Source: an uncultured Agathobacter sp.
GTDB taxonomy: Bacteria > Bacillota > Clostridia > Lachnospirales > Lachnospiraceae
Assembly (NCBI GenBank): GCA_934307695.1
Contig: CAKRCS010000002.1
Coordinates: forward strand, 186,001-250,000
Direction: 5' to 3'
DNA length: 64,000 nucleotides
The position numbers and the translations under genes were made by a program. Of the stretch, positions 2,508 to 48,735 are shown piece by piece (positions within the stretch are counted from its first letter, which is position 1; every line of letters begins with the position of its first letter). The notes under the pieces were generated by a model. It was not told where the DNA came from and ran no database searches. It saw nothing but the letters and a program-made list of their open reading frames with translations.

Positions 2508-2820
2508 GATTCAGGTGTCAAAAGGTGGTTTTACATTTTATGATTGGCAAATTGCCTAAAGCTGAACCTTGTTTTGCTCCGATGTCCGAAAATAAGAAAA
2601 TCTAAGTCTGCCTGAGTTAGGTTATATCAGAGGGACGTGTACGCCTTAAACGCCCCGTCCATGGGGCGTTAAGACTTTTGCTGCCGTCCATGGCAGCAAA
2701 ACACTATGCATTGACAGGCAGATTAAGATTTTCTAATTTTCTCCCAAAGTCGCAAAAAAGGTTCAGCTTTGTGCAATTTACCAGCTATTAAGTTTTGAAT
2801 CACCTTTTGACATCTGAATC
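2508..2820. repeat. Large imperfect inverted-repeat element enclosing two hairpins
   Basis: The left arm (2508-2614) and the reverse complement of the right arm (2715-2820) align over about 105 bp at roughly 75% identity by eye. Near-exact blocks lie at the outer ends (GATTCAGGTGTCAAAAGGTG against GATTCAGATGTCAAAAGGTG), in the middle (AAAGCTGAACCTT) and at the inner ends (AAAATCTAAGTCTGCCTG). Between the arms are two strong hairpins with the same six-base loop GTCCAT: stem 2645-2656/2663-2673 with one bulge, and a perfect 10-bp stem 2676-2685/2692-2701. The right arm overlaps the 3' end of the gene at 2723-3121. It looks like a non-autonomous mobile element (MITE-like) or a large structured RNA. 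No transposase or reverse transcriptase is nearby. Confidence 0.6.
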
Positions 2821-4804: not shown

Positions 4805-7800
4805 TTAAATTTCTGTAATCTCAGCGTGGTACTCCTGCAGGGACTTCACCTCACTGTTTCCTCTCTTCCTGATGGAGACGATACCGTTTACGGTCGCCTT
4901 TGCAGCCGCCATCGTGGTCATGTACGGGATCTTCTTCTTGATCGCAGCCTTGCGTAGATAGCTGTCATCATCCTTCGACTCGCTTCCGGATGGTGTGTTG
5001 ATCACGATATCAACCTCCCCGTTTAGGATGACGTCCATCATGTTCGGTCTGCCCTCCTGCAGCTTCTTGATCTCCGTTGCCTTAATTCCGTTGTCAACCA
5101 GTAGCTTACAGGTATGCTTGGAGGCGATGATCTCAAAGCCGTTCTCAGCAAAGCCCTTCGCCACTTCCACAACCTCTGCCTTATCCTTGTTATTTACGGA
5201 GATCAGCACCTTGCCGGAAAGCGGAAGCTTTAGCTGTACGCCCTCCTGTGCCTTGTAGAATGCCTCTCCCCAATACTTGGAAAGACCAAGCACCTCACCG
5301 GTGGAGCGCATCTCCGGTCCGAGCAGCGGATCAACCTCCTGGAACATATTAAATGGGAATGCCGCTTCCTTCACTCCGTAATATGGAATATTCTTCTCCG
5401 TTAAAGCAGGAACCGGTGATTCTTTTCCGGTCAGCTCTGCCGTGACGATCTCGACTGCCAGCGGCACCATGCGGATATCGCATACCTTCGATACCAGCGG
5501 TACGGTACGGGATGCGCGCGGATTCGCCTCAAGCACAAATACCTTGCCATCCTCGATCGCGTACTGCATGTTCATAAGTCCTTTGACATGCATCTCTTCC
5601 GCGATGCGTCTTGTATATTCCTTGATGGTCTTTACATTTTCCTCTGAGATATGGCGGGACGGAATGATGCATGCCGAGTCTCCGGAATGCACGCCGGCAA
5701 GCTCGATATGCTCCATAACCGCCGGTACAAAGGCATGTGTTCCATCGCTGATTGCATCCGCTTCGCACTCGGTTGCATGATTTAAGAAACGGTCGATCAG
5801 GATCGGACGATCCGGTGTCACACCTACTGCTGCATTCATGTATCCGGTCATGGACTGTGCATCGTAGACAACCTCCATGCCGCGTCCTCCAAGAACATAG
5901 GATGGGCGCACCATCACCGGATAGCCGATCTTGTCTGCGATTGCAAGTGCTTCCTCCACATTCACTGCCATTCCGGACTCCGGCATCGGGATCTCAAGCT
6001 TATCCATCATCGCGCGGAACAGGTCCCGATCCTCCGCAAGATCAATAACAGACGGTGCGGTTCCTAAGATCTTGACACCGTTCTTCTCCAAATCTGCCGC
6101 AAGGTTAAGCGGTGTCTGTCCGCCAAACTGTGCGATCACACCGACCGGCTGCTCCTTCTCATAAATACTAAGCACATCCTCAAGCGTCAGCGGCTCAAAG
6201 TAGAGCTTGTCAGAGGTATCGTAATCCGTTGATACGGTCTCCGGGTTGCAGTTTACGATAATGGTCTCAAAGCCGAGCTTCTTTAACGCAAGTGCAGCAT
6301 GTACACAGCAGTAGTCAAACTCGATTCCCTGACCGATGCGGTTCGGTCCGCCGCCAAGGATCATAACCTTTGGCTTGCCGCTTGTAACGGTGCTGTGATC
6401 CGGCGCATTGTAAGTAGAGTAATAATATGCGCTGTCCTTGGTGCCGCTTACATGTACACCCTCCCATGCTTCCTTTATGCCGATCTGCTGGCGCTTTGCG
6501 CGGATTTCATCCTCGGATACCTGAAGGATCTGGCTTAAGTATTTATCGGAAAATCCGTCCTTCTTCGCCTGGATCAAACGTGCATCCTCCGGAATGCTTC
6601 CGGCGTGTGCCATAAGAGTCTCCTCTTCCTCTACAAGCTCCTTCATCTGCTCAAGGAAATAGTGCTTGATCTTGGTAATCTCAAACAGCTCGTCCGGCGT
6701 TGCACCCTTGCGGAGTGCTTCATAAATGATAAAGTAACGCTCGCTGGACGGATAAAGAAGCTTCTTTAACAATTCTTCCTTGGATAAGGAATCAAAATTC
6801 TTCGCATGTCCCAATCCGTAGCGTCCCGTCTCAAGGCTTCGGATTGCCTTTTGGAACGCTTCCTTGAAGTTCTTTCCGATACTCATGACCTCGCCGACCG
6901 CACGCATCTGGGTGCCGAGCTTATCTTCCACGCCCTTGAACTTTTCAAATGCCCAGCGGGCGAATTTTACGACCACATAGTCGCCATCCGGAACGTACTT
7001 ATCCAATGTGCCGTATTTTCCGCAAGGAATATCCGCAAGCGTCAGCCCACAGGCAAGCATTGCGGAAACCAGCGCGATCGGGAATCCCGTCGCCTTGGAT
7101 GCAAGTGCTGAGGAGCGGGAGGTACGCGGATTGATCTCAATGATGATGTCACGGTCGGTAACCGGATCATGCGCCCACTGTACGTTGGTTCCTCCAATGA
7201 CCTGAATTGCCTCTACGATGCGGTAGGATTTTTCCTGCAAACGCTTCTGCACTTCCTCTGAGATCGTAAGCATCGGTGCGGAGCAGAAGGAATCTCCGGT
7301 GTGTACGCCGAGCGGATCGATATTCTCGATAAAGCATACCGTGATCATGTTGTTATCCGCATCACGGACAACCTCAAGCTCCAGCTCCTCCCAGCCAAGG
7401 ATTGATTCCTCGACCAGAACCTGACCTACGAGACTTGCCTGCAAGCCTCTCGCACAGACTGTCTTTAATTCCTCCACGTTGTAGACAAGACCTCCGCCTG
7501 CGCCGCCCATCGTATATGCCGGGCGCAAAACAACCGGATAATGCAGGCGCTCTGCGATCTCCATCGCCTCCTCCACGGAGTAAGCGACCTCGCTTCTTGC
7601 CATCTCAATCCCAAGGCTCTCCATCGTATGCTTAAACTCAATACGATCCTCGCCACGCTCGATCGCATCGACCTGAACACCGATTACCTTTACATTGTAC
7701 TTGTCAAGTACGCCCTTCTTTGCAAGCTCAGAGCAAAGATTCAGTCCTGACTGTCCGCCCAGATTCGGAAGGAGTGCATCCGGTCTTTCCTTTGCAATGA

Positions 7801-17588: not shown

Positions 17589-17624
17589 AAGCCGCTCAAA
17601 CGCCCTGTTTGAGCGGCTTTTTGA
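17589..17624. terminator. Hairpin terminator after tmRNA
   Basis: AAGCCGCTCAAAC (17589-17601) and GTTTGAGCGGCTT (17607-17619) form a perfect 13-bp stem with a 5-nt loop, starting 6 nt after the tmRNA 3' end. The T-run is stronger on the plus strand (TTTTT) than on the minus strand (GAATTTTA), but the position fits the minus-strand RNA. Confidence 0.7.
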
Positions 17625-17625
17625 G

Positions 17626-17963
17626 TGGACTAGACGGGAGTCGAACCCGTGTCCAAAAACCAATTCCCTGTCCTTCTACGAGTGTAGTTTATCATTTGAC
17701 ATTCCCTCCGCCGCACGGGGACAAACACCCTTGCGGTTTTAGTAGCTTCATGTTACGCCCACCGGCTCAAAGCTTTGCCGGTGTCGTTTCTCACAAAGTC
17801 GAAGCCTGGGTCCTAAGGTGTGAGTGCCCTAGGTCAGACTGCTGCAACTAGGCAGCGTATGCTAAATTTTCGTTAGCGTTTAATTTTAATTTGGCCATTT
17901 AACGCATTACCATACGACTCGCTTCTCCAGCTGCATGATCCCTGTCGAAACCATTACTAGCCC
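17626..17963 (-). ncRNA. ssrA: Transfer-messenger RNA
   Basis: This 338-nt gene makes tmRNA, which with SmpB frees stalled ribosomes and tags the unfinished protein. The 5' end GGGCTAG pairs with 3' CTAGTCC as a 7-bp acceptor stem with one G-U pair, followed by discriminator A. The T-arm region reads GGGTTCGACTCCC, and the 5' domain has GGTTTCGACAGGG. The tag frame (17895-17848) reads AKLKLNANENLAYAA, then TAG. CCA is not encoded. A small hairpin CCACC-TATC-GGTGG lies at 17979-17992, between smpB and the 5' end. Confidence 0.95.
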
Positions 17964-40770: not shown

Positions 40771-41433
40771 CTAGTTATGTCTGCGGTCAAGCTTCTTGGA
40801 AAGCATCATACCGATTCCCTGAAGAATCTGAACCAGTACGACCAGTATAACGATCGTCACGATCATGATGTCCGTCTCATAGCGGTAATAACCGTAACGG
40901 ATTGCAATATCTCCAAGTCCGCCGCCGCCAACAACTCCTGCCATTGCAGAGTAGCCGAGGATTGTTCCGATTGCGATCGTCACACCAACAAGTAGTGAGG
41001 TTCTCGCTTCCGCGAGCAGTACCTTCCATATAATCGTAAAGGTTCCTGCTCCCATGCTCTGTGCAGCCTCGATCACGCCCTTGTCCACTTCCTTTAAGGA
41101 GGACTCCACCATGCGTCCGATAAACGGTGCCGCCGCGATCGTAAGCGGTACGATTGTCGCAACCGCGCCATAGCTCTGTCCGACGATCAGCTTGGTAAGC
41201 GGCATAACCAGAATGAGGAGGATCAAAAACGGGATGCTTCGGGTAAGGTTTACGATAAAGTCCAGAATCCGGTATACGACCGCATTCGGTCGGATTCCAT
41301 CCTTGTCGGTGACTGCGAGCACGATTCCCATCGGAAGCCCGATCAGATACCCGAAAAAGGTGGAAAGTAACGTCATATATAAAGTTGCTGCCGTTCCCTC
41401 TAACAGCATGTTTCTAATTGTTTCATCCAACAA
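40771..41433 (-). CDS. metI: Methionine-type ABC transporter permease
   Basis: MetI forms the membrane channel of the D/L-methionine importer. The 220-residue protein has five to six membrane segments, ILDFIVNLTRSIPFLILLI and the EAA loop EAAQSMGAGTFTIIWKVLL, then GYSAMAGVVGGGGLGDIAIRYGY, a MetI hallmark. It overlaps the end of metN by 11 bp, which points to coupled translation. It is the last gene of the double transporter operon. Confidence 0.93.
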   Translation of the reverse strand: MLDETIRNMLLEGTAATLYMTLLSTFFGYLIGLPMGIVLAVTDKDGIRPNAVVYRILDFIVNLTRSIPFLILLILVMPLTKLIVGQSYGAVATIVPLTIAAAPFIGRMVESSLKEVDKGVIEAAQSMGAGTFTIIWKVLLAEARTSLLVGVTIAIGTILGYSAMAGVVGGGGLGDIAIRYGYYRYETDIMIVTIVILVVLVQILQGIGMMLSKKLDRRHN

Positions 41434-42433
41434 TGGAATCCACCTCCTCTACTCCGAGATTTTTTTCTTTGAAGTATGCAATCATTCCATCCGCGATCTT
41501 TTCCTCCTCCGGAAGCTGTAGGATCATCTCGCCCTCCGCATTTCCATTGATTGTGCGCGTGTTGGCATAAAGAATGTTAAGCGGGGTATGGTATTCCAGG
41601 ATCACATTTCCGATCAGCGGCTCAAACGCCGTCTTTCCATCGAAGGTTACACGGATCATGCGCTTTCCGTTCATCTGTGTCACATACGCAAAGTCATTAA
41701 AGATCAGCTTCTTTGCCGCCTCTGTCTTTGGTGCGCGGAACAGCTCCTCCACCGATCCGATCTCCGCGATCCTGCCGTGGTCAAGCACCGCAACCTTGGT
41801 GCAGATCTCCTGGATGACCGCCATCTCATGCGTTATGACAACGATCGTGATGCCATATTTCTGATTGATCTCTTTTAACAGGGACAGAATCGACTTGGTC
41901 GTCTGCGGGTCGAGTGCGCTCGTTGCCTCATCGCAAAGCAGGATCTTTGGGCTGCTTGCAAGCACTCTTGCGATTGCAACACGCTGCTTCTGTCCGCCGG
42001 ACAGCTGCGAAGGGTATGCCTTTTCCTTGTCACTTAACCCGACAGTCTCCAAAAACTGCCGTGCGCGCTCTCTTGCTTCTTTCTTACGCACGCCCGCGAT
42101 CTCCAGCGGAAAGCATACATTGTCCAGCACATTTCTTTGCATGAGCAGATTGAAATGCTGGAAGATCATTCCAATCTCCTGCCGTTTTTTCCGCAGCTCC
42201 CACTCCTTTAGCTTCATAATGTCCTTGTCGTCGACAAAAATTTCGCCTTTGTCCGGCTTTTCAAGCAGATTCAGGCAGCGTACCAGCGTACTCTTTCCGG
42301 CTCCGGAAAGACCGATGATTCCAAAAATGTCTCCCTTTTCAATGGAAAAGCTGACATCTTTTACCGCGTCTACCGTGCCCTCGCTCGTCTGAAACGTCTT
42401 GCTGATATTTATCGCGCGAATGATTTCTTCCAT
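41423..42433 (-). CDS. metN: Methionine-type ABC transporter ATPase
   Basis: MetN powers methionine import. The 336-residue protein has Walker A GLSGAGKST, signature LSGGQKQRVAIARVLA, Walker B ILLCDEATSALD and the H-loop THEM. A C-terminal NIL domain (about 255-336) is present; it senses cytoplasmic methionine and blocks transport in characterised MetNI. The gene lies 135 nt after the fused binding-protein gene, with a hairpin in the gap. Confidence 0.94.
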   Translation of the reverse strand: MEEIIRAINISKTFQTSEGTVDAVKDVSFSIEKGDIFGIIGLSGAGKSTLVRCLNLLEKPDKGEIFVDDKDIMKLKEWELRKKRQEIGMIFQHFNLLMQRNVLDNVCFPLEIAGVRKKEARERARQFLETVGLSDKEKAYPSQLSGGQKQRVAIARVLASSPKILLCDEATSALDPQTTKSILSLLKEINQKYGITIVVITHEMAVIQEICTKVAVLDHGRIAEIGSVEELFRAPKTEAAKKLIFNDFAYVTQMNGKRMIRVTFDGKTAFEPLIGNVILEYHTPLNILYANTRTINGNAEGEMILQLPEEEKIADGMIAYFKEKNLGVEEVDSIVG

Positions 42434-42523
42434 GCGTATTCTCTCTTTCTAAATAATTAAAATCCCGTTGCGTAACGCGCACACTCACAAAAGTACCGTC
42501 CGTACCGCGCTTTCACAACGTGC

Positions 42524-42550
42524 AAAAGTGTGCGTTAGGCGCACACTTTT
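42524..42550. promoter_or_regulatory. Strong hairpin between the fused binding-protein gene and metN
   Basis: AAAAGTGTGCG (42524-42534) and CGCACACTTTT (42540-42550) form a perfect 11-bp stem with a 5-nt loop, 18 nt after the stop at 42569. The base sequence after the stem on the minus strand is not T-rich beyond four Ts, so it is a weak terminator or an RNA-stabilising hairpin that lowers metNI expression relative to the binding protein. Confidence 0.55.
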
Positions 42551-42568
42551 ACGTTCGGTATGGTTCGT

Positions 42569-44203
42569 TTAGTTGAATGGGATTACTGCTCCATCGTAGG
42601 TTTCATTGATATAGTTGGTAATCTCATCAGACTTTAAGGTCTCGACCAATGCCTGAATTGCTTCGCTATTCTCGTTGCCTTCCTTTACTGCGATGACATT
42701 TACATAAGTCTTTGCAGCTTCGGAATCGGATGTCTCATAAGCGATGGAATCCTTTGCTACGGAAAATCCTGCCTGAAGTGCATAGTTGCCATTCAATACA
42801 ACAAATGCGACCTCATCCTTTACTCTGGCTACCTGTGCAGCCTCAAGCTCCTGGATCTTGATATTCTTCGGATTACTCTCGATATCCTTTACGGTTGCGC
42901 TAAGTCCTGCGCCATCCTTTAAAGTAATGATTCCGTTATCCTGTAACAGAAGCAGCGCTCTTGCCTCGTTGGTGGTATCGTTTGGTACTGCGATGGTATC
43001 TCCATCTGCAAGATCATCCAGTGAGCTCTTTGTTCCCGGATAGATTCCGAATGGCTCGTAGTGGATGCCTCCTGCGTTTACTAAGTGTGTTCCCTTCTCC
43101 TCATTGAAGTTGTCAAGGTAAGGAATGTGCTGGAAATAGTTTGCGTCAAAATCGCCGCTCTCTACTACAAGGTTTGGCTGTACATAATCATCAAATACGG
43201 TTACTTCCAGATCCCAGCCCTTTGCTGCCAGAAGCGGAGCTGCCTGTTCAAGGATCTCAGCATGTGGAGTTGCGCTTGCTGCAACCTTGATGGTTCCCTT
43301 CGTCTCTACCTGCTGTGCATCATCTGCTGCTGTATCATCTGCTGTGCCTTCTACTACACCACCCTCTACTACGAGGCTGTCAATGTCAACAGAGCTTCCG
43401 TATACCGGCTCAAGGGTTGCCTTGTAATCTGCATGGAAGAACTGCTCATCTGCAAGTGCCTTGATCTCATCATTGATCCATGTCAATAAGGTTTCATTTC
43501 CTTTTGATACTGCCGGGGCAATGGTGTCCAGGTTACCGATGGATTCAATTCCTACGCTGAATCCGTCATTCTGTAATGCCCATGCAAGAACTTCGGTGTT
43601 ATCTGTGGAGAATGCATCTCCTCTTCCGTCTAACAGTGCGTTGTATGCCTCAGTATACTGGTCAAACTTAACCAGCTCGATATCCGGGTAGTTCTCTGAG
43701 AAATAAGTCTCTGCTGTGGTTCCCTTTGTAACGATCAGCTTCTTGCCGTTTAACTCATCCGCAGATGTGATCAGAGCGCTGTCCGGTGATACAACACCAA
43801 GTGCCACCTTCATGTAAGGAAGTGCGAAGTCAACGGATTCCGCTCTCTCTGCGGTTACGGTGAAGTTTGCAAGGATAATATCTACCTTGCCGGATTTTAA
43901 ATACTCAACGCGGTTTGCTGCGTCCGTAGATACATACTCTACTTCCACGCCCAGATCCTTTGCCAGTCTGTCGCCAAAATAAATATCGTATCCCTGATAA
44001 TCTCCATTCTCATCTACATAACCGAATGGATTTTTGTCGCTGAAAACGCCGATCTTGACCGTTCCGCTCTCTTTGATCTCGTCAAGGGTACGGTAAACAA
44101 CATTTCCATCGCCTGCATCGGAAGTCTTATCTGAGCCGCCACAGCCCACAAAAGCTCCCAATGCCAAAACAAGTGCCAGTAATAATGTCAGAATCTTTTT
44201 CAT
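42569..44203 (-). CDS. Fused dual substrate-binding lipoprotein: SBP family 3 domain plus MetQ/NlpA domain
   Basis: The 544-residue lipoprotein (lipid Cys21 in FVGCGG) has two different binding domains. Residues about 36-268 are an amino-acid type family 3 domain (GTVKIGVFSDKNPFGYVDEN, quoted as GTVKIGVFSDKNPFGY, then TAERAESVDFALPY with the ligand Arg120, and LIVTKGTTAETYF). A Val/Gly/Asp-rich linker spans about 271-302. Residues about 303-544 are a MetQ/NlpA domain (IKVAASATPHAEILEQAAP, VAVPNDTTNEARALLLL-type motif at 405-420, AQVARVKDEVAFVVLNGNYA). It overlaps the polar-amino-acid ATPase gene by 4 bp and precedes metN, so one protein may serve both importers. Each half matches the transporter on its side of the operon. 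Confidence 0.9.
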   Translation of the reverse strand: MKKILTLLLALVLALGAFVGCGGSDKTSDAGDGNVVYRTLDEIKESGTVKIGVFSDKNPFGYVDENGDYQGYDIYFGDRLAKDLGVEVEYVSTDAANRVEYLKSGKVDIILANFTVTAERAESVDFALPYMKVALGVVSPDSALITSADELNGKKLIVTKGTTAETYFSENYPDIELVKFDQYTEAYNALLDGRGDAFSTDNTEVLAWALQNDGFSVGIESIGNLDTIAPAVSKGNETLLTWINDEIKALADEQFFHADYKATLEPVYGSSVDIDSLVVEGGVVEGTADDTAADDAQQVETKGTIKVAASATPHAEILEQAAPLLAAKGWDLEVTVFDDYVQPNLVVESGDFDANYFQHIPYLDNFNEEKGTHLVNAGGIHYEPFGIYPGTKSSLDDLADGDTIAVPNDTTNEARALLLLQDNGIITLKDGAGLSATVKDIESNPKNIKIQELEAAQVARVKDEVAFVVLNGNYALQAGFSVAKDSIAYETSDSEAAKTYVNVIAVKEGNENSEAIQALVETLKSDEITNYINETYDGAVIPFN

Positions 44204-44964
44204 GCTTTTTCTCCTCCTCTTGCATAAATAAATGTATTCAAAAACCGTCTTGCACGATCGGTTTCTGGCTGTGTGAAAAATTTTTCCGGCGGAGCCGCTT
44301 CTACGATTTTTCCGCCATCTAAGAAAATGATCTTGTCTGCAACCGCTCTCGCGAATTGCATCTCATGTGTCACGATAAGCATCGTGTAACCCTCTGCCGC
44401 GAGTTCTACGACAACATCCAAAACCTCTCTGACCATCTCCGGGTCGAGTGCTGCCGTGATCTCATCCATAAGAAGGATCTCCGGTTTTAAGATGAGCGCC
44501 CGCACGATCGCGACACGCTGCTTCTGCCCGCCGGACAGTTGTCCGGGATATGCATCCTTTTTGTCCAAAAGCCCGACACGGTCAAGTAACTTTTCCGCTT
44601 CCTCGATTGCTTCTTTCTTTTGTCTGCCCTGCACCTTAACGGGGCCTAAAATAATATTGTCAAGCACACTCATGTGTGGAAACAGTTCGTAATTCTGGAA
44701 AACCATTCCGATCTTCTGTCTGACCCTGGGCCAGTTGGTTCTGCTTTGTGTGATCACTTCTCCATCTAAAAGTATCTGCCCGGACTGAATCTGCTCCAGC
44801 CCGTTCATACATCGAAGGAAGGTGCTTTTCCCGCATCCGGAGGGTCCGATCACCACGATCACCTCTCCCTTATGTAAGGAAAGGGAAACATCACTTAGCA
44901 CTTCTCCCTCGCCATAATTTTTACTGATATGCTTTGCTTCCAGTACAACCGGCTGTTCTGCCAT
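44200..44964 (-). CDS. Polar amino acid (cystine-like) ABC transporter ATPase
   Basis: The 254-residue ATPase belongs to the GlnQ/HisP/TcyN group: Walker A GPSGCGKST, Q-loop MVFQNYELFPHMSVLDNI, signature LSGGQKQRVAIVRAL, Walker B ILLMDEITAALD and H-loop THEMQFAR. The usual ARAL reads VRAL and the usual DEPTSALD reads DEITAALD, which are mild departures. It should pair with the two permeases upstream and the family 3 domain of the downstream lipoprotein, which it overlaps by four bases. Confidence 0.93.
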   Translation of the reverse strand: MAEQPVVLEAKHISKNYGEGEVLSDVSLSLHKGEVIVVIGPSGCGKSTFLRCMNGLEQIQSGQILLDGEVITQSRTNWPRVRQKIGMVFQNYELFPHMSVLDNIILGPVKVQGRQKKEAIEEAEKLLDRVGLLDKKDAYPGQLSGGQKQRVAIVRALILKPEILLMDEITAALDPEMVREVLDVVVELAAEGYTMLIVTHEMQFARAVADKIIFLDGGKIVEAAPPEKFFTQPETDRARRFLNTFIYARGGEKA

Positions 44965-45012
44965 ATCCTCACCTCATTTTCTTGGAAGTCGTTATTGTCT
45001 GTAATTTGCAGC

Positions 45013-45693
45013 CTAGGCTGCTTTCCATTTTTTCTCCAGATGCTTTGCTGCCAGCGAGATCGGCCAGCAGGTGAAAAAATATAGGAAGAAAATCGCTCCG
45101 TATATCCACAACGCTGCATCCGGAACCGTGTACCGGTTCGCCTCGATGATCTGCTGTGCAACCTTTAGCACCTCGACCACTCCGATCAGTGCAACCAGCG
45201 AAGTCGTTTTTATCATTCGTGTTGTCAGGTTGATTGCCAGCGGGATCAGTCTCGTCACGATCTGTGGGATAATGACGTATCTGTATACCTGCTTTTGCGT
45301 AAGCCCGACTGCTGCACCGCTCTCGTATTGATGCTTCGGGATGGAGATAAGTGCACCACGCACCAGATCTCCCATCTCTGCGGTTCCCCACAGTGTGAAC
45401 ACGATCACCGCGCTCAGCTCTCCGGATAGGTTCAGCCGGAATGATCTCGCCAGCCCGAAAAATACCAAAAACAGTAGCACAAGCTGTGGCATGATCCGGA
45501 CAAATTCCAGATAGATCTTTGTCAGTGCCTTTGTGACCGGGTTCTTAACGGTCATCAGCATTCCAAGCAGGATACCGAACATGATCGACAGTGCAACCGC
45601 GATCAGTGAGATCCGGATCGTAATCCATAGTCCGTATAGAAGTCTTGCGAAGTTGTTTCCCATGAACAGAACTCTAATTCCCAAATCCTGCAT
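45013..45693 (-). CDS. Polar amino acid ABC transporter permease
   Basis: The 226-residue HisM/GlnP-type permease has about five membrane segments (WITIRISLIAVALSIMFGILLG; IYLEFVRIMPQLVLLFLVFFGL) and a recognisable EAA loop (YESGAAVGLTQKQVYRYVIIP). It overlaps the companion permease gene by 20 bp and lies 48 nt before the ATPase gene. The two permeases probably form a heterodimer. Confidence 0.9.
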   Translation of the reverse strand: MQDLGIRVLFMGNNFARLLYGLWITIRISLIAVALSIMFGILLGMLMTVKNPVTKALTKIYLEFVRIMPQLVLLFLVFFGLARSFRLNLSGELSAVIVFTLWGTAEMGDLVRGALISIPKHQYESGAAVGLTQKQVYRYVIIPQIVTRLIPLAINLTTRMIKTTSLVALIGVVEVLKVAQQIIEANRYTVPDAALWIYGAIFFLYFFTCWPISLAAKHLEKKWKAA

Positions 45694-46333
45694 ACCGTAA
45701 CCTCCTCTCCAGTACCGTTGCCAGTATCGTAATCGGTAACAGTATGATCAGATATGCAGCCACCAGCATGAGCAGCGCTTCATCTGTCTTGTAGTAGAGA
45801 CCTATGAGATCCTTTGCCACATACATCAGATCTGCCAGCGCCACAACGCTGAATACGGATGTCTCTTTTATCAGGAACACCATGTTTGCACATAGTGCCG
45901 GGACTGATACGGACAATGCCTGCGGAAGAACCACATATCTTACGATCTGGCTTCTTCTCATTCCGAGTGCCAGTGCCGATTCCTCCTGTCCTTTGTCCAC
46001 CGCTTCAATCCCGCTTCGGAATGCCTCCGCCATGTAACTGCCTCCTAAGAAGCAGAGCCCGATGATCGCACAGCCCTTGGAGCTGATGCTGATGCCTGCT
46101 TTCGGTAATCCAAAGTATAACAAAAACAGTTGTACCAGAAGCGGTGTGTTGCGGGATAACTCGATGTATATGGCTGCGATCGTTTTTAGTACCGGTACTT
46201 TAAAATACTGAATACAGGCGATCAGAAGTCCTACCACCAGTGAAAGTGCGATTCCGATCAGACCAATGCTAAGTGTCAGCCCCGCCGCCTTGACGTATAG
46301 CGGTGTGTATTCAGCTATAAACTGCGTATCCAT
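45674..46333 (-). CDS. Polar amino acid ABC transporter permease
   Basis: The 219-residue permease is the first gene of the double transporter operon. It has the HisM/GlnP family signature IYIELSRNTPLLVQLFLLYFG and the EAA loop EESALALGMRRSQIVRYVVLP. AAAGGAAG precedes the ATG. The operon promoter and a probable LysR box lie upstream. Similarity of the set to cystine importers makes a sulfur amino acid a reasonable but unproved substrate. Confidence 0.92.
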   Translation of the reverse strand: MDTQFIAEYTPLYVKAAGLTLSIGLIGIALSLVVGLLIACIQYFKVPVLKTIAAIYIELSRNTPLLVQLFLLYFGLPKAGISISSKGCAIIGLCFLGGSYMAEAFRSGIEAVDKGQEESALALGMRRSQIVRYVVLPQALSVSVPALCANMVFLIKETSVFSVVALADLMYVAKDLIGLYYKTDEALLMLVAAYLIILLPITILATVLERRLRYAGFGN

Positions 46334-46639: not shown

Positions 46640-47551
46640 TTATTTTAATGCCTTGTCTTCGTATTTGGATAGCTCCTCGATGTACTTCTTTCCGAGAGAG
46701 CTTATCATGACACCCTTGCGGGAAAGATATCCGATCGTCATAGTCTCGTCCGAATGCAGGCGCACCGCACAGTAATCCGAACCGTTTAATTCTTCACAGA
46801 TGATACCGGAGCAAAGCGTGTAACCGTTTAGACCTACCATGAGATTTAACAGAGTGGCACGGTCGCTGGCGCGGATCAACTGCTTATAGTGGTAAGTGCT
46901 GAGCACCTCCTCCGCAAAATAGAAGGAATTGTTCTTCCCCTGGTCGAATGCCAGACACGGGTACTCCTCCAGTTCCTCCAGTGTGATTTCCTCCCGGTCT
47001 GCGAGCGGATGTCCTTTCCACATGTAGACGTAAATGTGGCAGTCGAGGATCGGGTGGAACACCAGCCCGTTTTCCGCAAACAGCTTGTTTAACACCTTCT
47101 GGTTAAATTCGTTGAGATAGAGGATTCCGATCTCACTCTTGAAATTCTTGACATTCTCGATAACCTCGTAGGTCTTCGTCTCATAAATCGCGAACTCGTA
47201 CTCATCAATTCCGAACTGTTTGACCATCTCCACAAACGCCTTTACCGCAAAGGTATAGTGTTGCGTTGACACACCGAATTTCTTTTTGATGCTGCCCTTA
47301 TCGATGTACTTTGTCTCGATCAGTCCGTATTGCTCTACGACCTGCCGCGCATAGCCGATAAACTCCTCTCCCTCGGTCGTGGTAAATACGCCCTTATTGT
47401 TACGGATGAATACCTCGATCCCGATCTCCTCCTCCAGCTCCTTGATTGCCGAGGAAAGGCTCGGCTGGGAGATAAACAGCTTTTTTGCAGCTTTATTCAT
47501 GGATTTGGATTCTGCTACCGTAATAATATATCGCAACTGTGTCAGTGTCAT
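46640..47551 (-). CDS. LysR-family regulator next to the double ABC transporter operon
   Basis: The 303-residue regulator has an N-terminal winged helix (MTLTQLRYIITVAESKSMNKAAKKLF, quoted as TLTQLRYIITVAE; SQPSLSSAIKELEEEIGIEVF) and a periplasmic-binding-like effector domain. It is the second gene after the rhodanese-TtcA fusion (23 nt gap) and lies directly upstream of the transporter operon. Control of sulfur amino acid uptake, as by CysB/YtlI/CmbR relatives, is inferred from position only. Confidence 0.85.
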   Translation of the reverse strand: MTLTQLRYIITVAESKSMNKAAKKLFISQPSLSSAIKELEEEIGIEVFIRNNKGVFTTTEGEEFIGYARQVVEQYGLIETKYIDKGSIKKKFGVSTQHYTFAVKAFVEMVKQFGIDEYEFAIYETKTYEVIENVKNFKSEIGILYLNEFNQKVLNKLFAENGLVFHPILDCHIYVYMWKGHPLADREEITLEELEEYPCLAFDQGKNNSFYFAEEVLSTYHYKQLIRASDRATLLNLMVGLNGYTLCSGIICEELNGSDYCAVRLHSDETMTIGYLSRKGVMISSLGKKYIEELSKYEDKALK

Positions 47552-47574: not shown

Positions 47575-48735
47575 TTAATTGGTTCTGCTGTCGTAATCAT
47601 CCAAAAACTGATAGGTCATATCATCCTTGTGATAGCCGATCACTGTTTTCAGATTGATGTTCTTTACGCTGTTGAAGATATTGATGTCGATCACATCGCT
47701 GACCTTACGGAACTGTGCGATCAGCTCCTTCATTTCATCACGCTTTGAGCCTCTGCCGCCACCGCAGGTCGCACAATTCTCGGTAAAACGGCAGGCACAC
47801 TGTATAAAATGCAGTCCGTTGTAATCGCGCCATGCCTTTATCGCATCTTCCTTGACTAAATACATCGGGCGGATCAGTTCCATCCCCTCAAAATGCTGGC
47901 TGTGCAGCTTCGGCATCATCGTTTCCACCTTGCCGCTATATAACATTCCCATCAGGATCGTCTCAATCACGTCATCGAAGTGATGTCCAAGCGCGATCTT
48001 ATTGCAGCCAAGCTCTTTTGCCTTTGCATAGAGATAGCCTCTGCGCATGCGCGCGCACAGATAGCATGGGTTATGGTCGATCGTTGCCACCGTGTCAAAA
48101 ATATCACTGTTGAATACCGTAAGTGGAATGCCAAGGAGCTTTGCATTGTCCTCTATGATCTTCCAGTTGTCCGCATTGTATCCCGGATTCATTACCAGAA
48201 AAACCGCCTCAAACGGCACTTTGCCGTGGCGCTGCAGCTCCTGGATCAGCTTTGCTAAAAGCATTGAATCCTTACCGCCGGATATGCACACTGCAACCTT
48301 GTCGCCCTCGTTGATCAGCTTATATTCATTCAGCGCGCGGGTAAACGGGCGCCACACGGTCTTTTTAAACTTCTTGATGATGCTGCGCTCGATCTCTGCT
48401 GTCTTTTCCCTGCGCGCCTCCTCGGACGCACTCTCCATATACCGGTTGAGCGTCAGCTTTAAATACGCACGGTATCCTCCGTCCACATTGACCGCATCGT
48501 AGCCGGCTTCCTCTAAGTCCTCCGTATAACCGCGGCTGCGCTCGCCGGTGTGGCACATCAGATAGATGGTCTTATCCTTTGGAATGCGATCCATATTTTC
48601 TTCAAACACATCCATCGGAATGCTGACCGCACCCGGAAATGTCCCACGCTCATATTGTTCCTGCGGACGGATATCGACCACGCAACAGGTGTCCTTATTT
48701 ATCTGTTCCAATTCTTCGATCGTAATGCTTTTCAT
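47575..48735 (-). CDS. Rhodanese fused to TtcA-like PP-loop ATPase
   Basis: The 386-residue protein joins a rhodanese domain (1-105; active-site Cys61 in MCHTGERSRG) to a TtcA/TilS-type tRNA-thiolation ATPase domain (about 120-380). The PP-loop is SGGKDSM, with CYLCARMRRG and the late CACRFTENCATCGGG cysteine groups that suggest an Fe-S cluster. A rhodanese could pass persulfide sulfur directly to the ATPase. The exact tRNA base is unknown. GAGAGG precedes the ATG and a good promoter lies upstream. Confidence 0.85.
   Translation of the reverse strand: MKSITIEELEQINKDTCCVVDIRPQEQYERGTFPGAVSIPMDVFEENMDRIPKDKTIYLMCHTGERSRGYTEDLEEAGYDAVNVDGGYRAYLKLTLNRYMESASEEARREKTAEIERSIIKKFKKTVWRPFTRALNEYKLINEGDKVAVCISGGKDSMLLAKLIQELQRHGKVPFEAVFLVMNPGYNADNWKIIEDNAKLLGIPLTVFNSDIFDTVATIDHNPCYLCARMRRGYLYAKAKELGCNKIALGHHFDDVIETILMGMLYSGKVETMMPKLHSQHFEGMELIRPMYLVKEDAIKAWRDYNGLHFIQCACRFTENCATCGGGRGSKRDEMKELIAQFRKVSDVIDINIFNSVKNINLKTVIGYHKDDMTYQFLDDYDSRTN

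Follow-up and report, generated by a model that had tools for sequence, protein, structure and literature searches.

A lipoprotein with cysteine-receptor-like and MetQ domains, encoded between two amino acid importers in an uncultured Agathobacter

Background

Which importer is served by a lipoprotein that carries two unlike binding domains and is encoded between the genes of two ATP-binding cassette (ABC) importers? Substrate-binding proteins are regarded as dedicated to one importer, or as several serving one importer. The question is raised by a fused gene in a probable operon at 40771-46333 of a 64,000-nucleotide stretch from an uncultured Agathobacter sp. (assembly GCA_934307695.1, contig CAKRCS010000002.1, positions 186,001 to 250,000), here called the window. 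An earlier reading made from the letters alone (the sequence-only reading) had described a family 3 amino acid-binding domain joined to a MetQ/NlpA domain and had proposed that this shared double receptor bridges a polar amino acid importer and the methionine importer MetNI. The analysis reported here indicates that the protein is probably a hetero-tandem lipoprotein, with an L-cysteine half that docks on the polar amino acid importer (permeases P1 and P2 and ATPase A1) and a methionine half that docks on MetNI.

Results

The fused gene is a single uninterrupted frame of 544 amino acids in which Pfam finds both domains, SBP_bac_3 at residues 49-253 (E = 3.3e-28, 98.5 bits, cut-off 26.4) and Lipoprotein_9 at residues 305-542 (E = 2.9e-87, 292.2 bits, cut-off 27), the latter over profile positions 1-234 of 236. 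These bounds agree roughly with those of the sequence-only reading (about 36-268 and 303-544), and its single lipid anchor holds as well, because the protein has a single cysteine, C21, which ends the signal peptide. C21 sits before the family 3 half, and the MetQ half has no lipid anchor of its own. The structure prediction that had been suggested as a check gives two folded domains joined by a low-confidence linker at residues 287-297 (AlphaFold with a 44-sequence alignment; mean predicted local distance difference test score, pLDDT, 84.6). In Foldseek searches the MetQ half matches 4ib2, a MetQ-type protein of Ruminococcus gnavus (80% identical), and the family 3 half matches the cysteine receptors 1xt8 and 2yjp (54-55% identical). 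The Protein Data Bank entry 4ib2 may itself be a piece of a fusion. Across 38 fetched fusions the linker is 13-57 residues long (median 24, measured motif to motif) and also differs in sequence. A lipobox-like motif precedes the first domain in 36 of these; the exceptions are L015, which is truncated at the 5' end, and L001, which is taken up in the Discussion.

The same arrangement is frequent among the closest relatives of the protein. A full-protein search scored 7999 matches, and all 120 of the matches listed have both Pfam domains, so the fusion is not a local error. They are 81-100% identical to the window protein (30 of them at 99-100%), three align over 94% of the query and the others over all of it, and the relatives with a named source are Lachnospiraceae. 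With the divergent fusion L132 as query, 119 of the 120 matches listed (of 2670) have both domains. The fear that homologues might always keep the halves separate is thus unfounded, since fused homologues are abundant among the matches listed. The 120th match to L132, a metagenome protein of 781 amino acids (P0138), has three nearly identical tandem MetQ domains, which are either real or a product of assembly.

Counted over genomes, the fusion is a minority state. Sampling was centred on Lachnospiraceae bacterium XBB2008 (G010, with its locus L010). Fusions, whole or truncated by a contig end, were detected in 20 of 397 genomes in an even sample of its family (21 rows, of which G363 has the family 3 half alone), in 6 of 392 genomes of its order, in 3 of 398 of its phylum and in 9 of 150 in another sample that overlaps these three; the samples overlap one another and all include G010. 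At the threshold of the family and order samples (E = 1e-150), a fusion would be missed if its match is split at a long linker, as in G001. No description of a family 3/MetQ fusion was found in titles or abstract starts among the literature matches listed, which leave subscription papers mostly uncovered and are not proof, and a survey of solute-binding proteins (PMC9602780) has no wording on fused, tandem or paired members.

Solo relatives of each half indicate which importer it belongs to. For every solo gene in the fetched loci, same-strand neighbours up to 4.5 kb away were counted; the loci were chosen as relatives of the fusion and are not a random sample. Solo family 3 genes lie near P1, P2 and A1 in 36 of 38 cases, and the other two (L096 and L109) are near contig ends; solo MetQ genes lie near MetN and MetI in 55 of 72. 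Genes of the other importer are also nearby in 3 of 38 and 7 of 72 cases respectively. The pairing that had been proposed, family 3 half with polar amino acid importer and MetQ half with MetNI, is borne out by these neighbourhoods. One gene counted as a solo MetQ, L032, is possibly a truncated fusion: it starts at the edge of a contig and is followed by MetN-MetI-P1-P2-A1. L047 and L127 are one gene fetched twice. The solo MetQ of L047 and the MetQ half of the fusion L045, from the same genome, are almost identical, which suggests recent duplication or splitting.

The unfused order P1-P2-A1-S3-MetQ-MetN-MetI (S3 being the family 3 gene) is present in L052 and, as far as the contig end, in L057. 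Among the 38 fetched fusion loci, 21 have the order fusion-MetN-MetI-P1-P2-A1 and two more have it with P1 cut by a contig end; seven have the window-like order P1-P2-A1-fusion-MetN-MetI, and five have fusion-P1-P2-A1 only. The remaining single loci show fusion-MetN-MetI, MetN-MetI-fusion at a contig end, and the fusion at a contig end. In the genome of the last (G371) another contig, L150, opens with MetN-MetI-P1-P2-A1, as a contig break would produce. Both importer sets are thus complete in 28 loci and cut in P1 in two. Operon conservation, put forward earlier as a check, stands in that both sets accompany the fusion in these 30 of 38 loci; a fixed order does not, as several gene orders exist.

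Copy searches covered 39 genomes, namely G363 and the 38 fusion carriers, all of them relatives of the window organism. At E = 1e-30 none of the 38 carriers yielded a family 3 homologue apart from the fusion itself (G015 contains an additional, incomplete fusion fragment), and at E = 1e-12 no MetQ beyond that of the fusion turned up in 33 of them. A solo MetQ exists alongside the fusion in G005, G006, G011, G016 and G253, and these are exactly the five genomes in which the fusion locus is fusion-P1-P2-A1 and lacks MetNI. The solo MetQ adjoins the only MetI found in G005, G006 and G253, and is on a different contig from MetI in G011 and G016. For independent genomes this association, 5/5 versus 0/33, would arise by chance once in 501,942, but independence does not hold, L005 and L006 being sisters in the tree. 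MetI is present in all 38 fusion genomes, in single copy except in G015, and P1 in 36 at E = 1e-50, with contigs ending at the site of both misses. The mirror case is G215, whose fusion is accompanied by MetNI alone, while a separate contig has an orphan P1-P2-A1 set with no family 3 gene (L149, 3697-5782, minus strand); here no receptor candidate other than the fusion was found for either importer. In G363, which has a solo family 3 gene 90% identical to the half in the window, no match to MetQ or MetI was found. A shared double receptor for two importers, as the sequence-only reading had it, is well supported by this genome evidence from relatives: the sole-copy pattern, the neighbourhoods and G215.

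Both ligand pockets look intact. Methionine contacts in MetQ of Neisseria meningitidis are R156, N213, N238, Y81, F98, H100 and Y103, with N238 equivalent to N229 of Escherichia coli (excerpts of PMC6739813). They map to R415, N471, N502, Y340, F357, H359 and Y362 of the window protein, and all seven expected residues are present; contacts other than N238 were placed by their spacing and by the E. coli MetQ row (L094) in the alignment. N473 was considered as the counterpart of N213 and dropped: E. coli has T at that position, whereas every row, that of E. coli included, has N at position 471. Five positions (Y340, H359, Y362, R415 and N471) do not vary among 39 fusion rows, and N502 is N in all 37 rows that reach it. 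The NCBIfam MetQ models score the protein under their cut-offs (PRK11063, 189.8 bits against 374; TIGR00363, 180.9 against 228.85).

The family 3 half is identical to 1xt8, the cysteine-binding protein CjaA of Campylobacter, at 136 of 253 aligned residues (54%). It scores 279 bits to 1xt8 and 267 to 2yjp, and the next family 3 entry is at 131 bits. No NCBIfam amino acid receptor model passes its cut-off (lysine/arginine/ornithine, 125.2 bits against 256.35; cystine, 99.2 against 312). At 13 of 15 checked pocket-region positions the window protein and 1xt8 are identical, the differing ones being F180/Y and T200/H, and T115, R120 and D201 are kept in all 38 fusion rows and all 38 solo family 3 rows. 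Docking modelled on 2yjp gives residues for FliY that include Thr109, Arg114, Asp192, Tyr51 and Lys182 (excerpts of PMC7170509). T115 and R120 have the same spacing as Thr109 and Arg114 (FliY itself stands outside the alignment), and D201 is read as the likely counterpart of Asp192. Because the family 3 half is closest to the solved L-cysteine receptors, it looks like a receptor for L-cysteine rather than cystine. The ligand pair suggested at first, cystine and methionine, is therefore kept for methionine, where the pocket positions of the MetQ half agree, and replaced for cystine, the nearest proteins being 1xt8 and 2yjp.

Phylogenetic analysis shows that the fusion did not arise only once: at least two origins are firm and three are likely, with some later splitting. 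In the family 3 tree of 59 rows, a branch with support 100/100 separates the window fusion, L001, L002 and L012, together with solo genes, from the other fusions. A single clade of all fusions is rejected by the approximately unbiased (AU) test for the family 3 half (p = 3.9e-9 with 59 rows, 6.1e-42 with 76 rows) and for the MetQ half (p = 7.4e-5, 108 rows). When L014 and L132 are set aside, the MetQ tree also rejects one clade of the window and main types (p = 1.5e-5). In the family 3 tree, the test without the window type gives p = 0.011 for a group that was chosen after the tree was seen. Long branches (L118, L130 and L094) and a cut sequence (L071) were left out of the MetQ tree, and L015, which is too short, out of the family 3 trees.

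A constraint that groups the seven window-type fusions is not rejected for the family 3 tree (p = 0.20) or for the MetQ tree, where the constrained tree beats the free one (p = 0.72). A single origin is therefore possible for the window type, and the quick unconstrained MetQ tree was not the best. L014 and L132, with MetQ halves 47% identical to that of the window, form a pair of their own (support 100) and are the basis for the likely third origin; L014 is placed apart from the large MetQ clade (95/86), though on a long branch. L143 has a gene order of its own and a family 3 half that groups beside the unfused L052, and it may be a fourth origin. Solo genes also occur inside fusion clades (L044, L100 and L103); splitting of fusions can explain some of them, and the exact counts of origins are unfixed.

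In the window the genes follow one another in the direction of transcription as P1, P2, A1, fusion, MetN and MetI, all on the minus strand (Table 1). Domain searches with Pfam and NCBIfam confirm that the fusion gene sits between a polar amino acid importer of two permeases and an ATPase and a MetNI importer, with ABC_tran and NIL in MetN, which is under the equivalog cut-off, and with MetI present. Neighbouring genes overlap three times (by 20, 4 and 11 bases), and a search of the minus strand from P1 to MetI found no terminator-like site. Both fit one operon, as which the genes are probably transcribed. Promoter-like sites are no more numerous in the window than in its shuffles.

Table 1. 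Features of the operon and of the fused protein in the window
Feature	Positions	Strand	Evidence
P1, polar amino acid ABC permease 1, 219 amino acids	45674..46333	-	BPD_transp_1 E 9.9e-23; HEQRo_perm_3TM above cut-off
P2, polar amino acid ABC permease 2, 226 amino acids, overlapping P1	45013..45693	-	BPD_transp_1 E 9.3e-14; HEQRo_perm_3TM above cut-off
A1, GlnQ-like ATPase, 254 amino acids	44200..44964	-	ABC_tran E 1e-39; top NCBIfam model GlnQ 298.3 bits, below cut-off 379
Fused double substrate-binding lipoprotein, 544 amino acids	42569..44203	-	Single open frame; SBP_bac_3 and Lipoprotein_9; two folded domains and low-confidence linker in model
Signal peptide and putative lipid-anchor cysteine C21, residues 1-21	44141..44203	-	C21 is the sole cysteine
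Family 3 (cysteine-receptor-like) domain, residues 36-284	43352..44098	-	54% identity to 1xt8; T115, R120 and D201 kept
Flexible acidic linker, residues 285-301	43301..43351	-	pLDDT below 50 at 287-297
MetQ domain, residues 302-544	42572..43300	-	Lipoprotein_9 E 2.9e-87; methionine-pocket positions kept
MetN ATPase with NIL domain, 336 amino acids	41423..42433	-	ABC_tran and NIL; top NCBIfam model MetN 350.6 bits, below equivalog cut-off 499.7
MetI permease, 220 amino acids	40771..41433	-	NCBIfam MetI 216.4 bits, above cut-off 212
LysR-type regulator upstream of the operon, candidate regulator	46640..47551	-	HTH_1 and LysR_substrate
Promoter-like site before P1	46405..46433	-	TTTACA-17-TATAAT, 11/12, consensus match alone

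Same-strand relatives of the window LysR gene with at least 60% identity occur in 12 of 80 loci (the best 80 of at least 586 matches, which make up the locus set); all 12 have a solo MetQ and six also have MetNI. Seven of the 38 fusion loci have a LysR relative, at 43-75% identity. The LysR-type regulators CmbR and CmhR of Streptococcus pneumoniae control cysteine and methionine genes including tcyB and metQ (excerpts of PMC5131005), and the window LysR may control the operon. Loci L030, L034 and L036-L039 have a solo MetQ with a LysR gene and no MetNI within 4.5 kb. The LysR gene is adjoined by a gene (47575-48735, minus strand) for a protein of 386 amino acids with Rhodanese and TtcA-like PP-loop domains, for which the NCBIfam TtcA model is below cut-off.

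The MetN beside the fusion has no NIL domain in seven of ten loci tested, which were largely picked as short (L002, L003, L012, L081, L082, L136 and L137), a possible loss of methionine feedback; unlike these, the window MetN keeps the domain. Rfam finds a TwoAYGGAY RNA (2581-2748, minus strand) and a transfer-messenger RNA (17623-17963, minus strand) well over the gathering score, both far from the operon, and no other RNA in the window at the gathering threshold.

Discussion

The fusion is real, repeated and apparently functional, and it is a variant of tandem substrate-binding proteins built of known parts. C21 would hold the cysteine-receptor domain at the membrane as a lipid anchor, followed by the flexible linker and the MetQ domain. 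The first domain would catch L-cysteine and dock on the P1-P2-A1 importer, the second would catch methionine and dock on MetNI, and the linker would allow the domains to act independently. The MetQ half would thereby borrow the anchor of the other receptor, and because each molecule carries one of each domain, a single operon would supply the two receptors in a fixed 1:1 ratio.

Several observations weigh against this reading. The cysteine assignment is made by similarity, with no counterparts shown for Tyr51 and Lys182 of FliY, and the AlphaFold model leaves the mutual placing of the domains unfixed (predicted template modelling score 0.49). Residue 357 is F in 31 of 39 fusions, M in four, V in two and S in two. 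The signal peptide of the L001 fusion (6004-7740 of its locus, plus strand) has no lipid-anchor cysteine, so this protein may be secreted or held some other way. MetNI genes are missing within 4.5 kb of 17 of the 72 solo MetQ genes, and the solo MetQ in five of the 38 fusion genomes shows that the MetQ half of the fusion is not always needed by MetNI. The sole-copy pattern comes from genomes of relatives and not from that of the window organism, and the absence of other copies is a weak negative because the carrier records are mostly metagenome-assembled genomes of unstated completeness.

Could the fusion physically join both importers, with both domains docked at once and the uptake of cysteine and methionine mechanically coupled or competing? 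With a single anchor, a linker of 13-57 residues might in principle reach across adjacent importers, and the two gene sets stand together in 30 of 38 loci. However, the freely varying length and sequence of the linker speak against a fixed complex, the tandem domains of GlnPQ bind independently (excerpts of PMC8025302), and in G215 the two operons are split, though this does not split the proteins. Such a physical junction is unlikely. The words bridging and coordinated uptake used earlier hold in the sense of a tether on one anchor, which is seen in the sequence, and are doubtful in the physical sense. For the hetero-tandem receptor, the analogy with GlnPQ leads us to expect independent binding with shared positioning.

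A protein in which one half only is functional, and the other is a passenger retained by chance after gene fusion, is just as improbable. It would accommodate the solo MetQ found beside the fusion in five genomes and the variation at F357 in eight of 39 fusions. None of these eight comes from the five genomes that have a solo MetQ. The pocket positions of both halves, however, are kept across divergent fusions, including those five. More than one origin also speaks against a passenger, as does the lack of a further MetQ match in 33 of the 38 genomes and of a further family 3 match in all 38.

Very little speaks for both halves feeding one importer and broadening its substrate range. Tandem domains on one importer are a known pattern, as in GlnPQ (excerpts of PMC8025302), but solo members of the two receptor families sit with different importers, and the fusion genomes have MetI in all cases and P1 in all but the two with contig ends. 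A sequencing or assembly artefact that deleted a stop codon between two genes, for which the unfused genes of L052 in the same order could be cited, is next to impossible given fusions in many separate contigs, several gene orders and several lineages.

The systems nearest to the hetero-tandem receptor are the GlnPQ tandem domains and AdcA. GlnPQ of Lactococcus lactis likewise has tandem binding domains with different ligands and a flexible linker, and its tandem structure 6h30 is among the fold matches. In GlnPQ, however, the two domains are attached to the membrane-spanning part of a single importer, and transport becomes slower when the linkers are lengthened (excerpts of PMC8025302). The fusion instead combines two receptor families on a free lipoprotein in which Pfam finds no permease domain, and it apparently supplies two importers. 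AdcA delivers to a single importer, AdcBC, and consists of ZnuA-like and ZinT-like parts; Pfam reports neither of these in the fusion. This Gram-positive zinc lipoprotein resembles the fusion in having two domains on one lipoprotein that are used in uptake, but both act in the uptake of zinc (excerpts of PMC7858048).

Each half can also be compared with its own family. The MetQ fold and pocket, the MetN with NIL and the MetI are those of a MetQ-MetNI system, in which MetQ is normally a separate lipoprotein; here it is tethered via another domain. In N. meningitidis the lipid of MetQ is required for maximal stimulation of MetNI (excerpts of PMC8416018). The L-cysteine receptors 1xt8 and 2yjp (the latter gonococcal NGO2014) share the fold of the family 3 half and 54-55% identity over the domain, but they are single-domain receptors.

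Conclusions

A more far-reaching proposal, still doubtful, is that one lipoprotein ties the two importers together and balances the uptake of cysteine and methionine, so that docking on one importer would lower its availability to the other, and that this was invented repeatedly, perhaps at least three times, in gut Bacillota. If true, a receptor with two unlike domains for two importers would be a new way to link sulfur amino acid uptake in anaerobic gut bacteria. The repeated fusion would then offer a natural test of what receptor tethering does for ABC import, and the competition of the importers for a shared receptor would be the question of interest.

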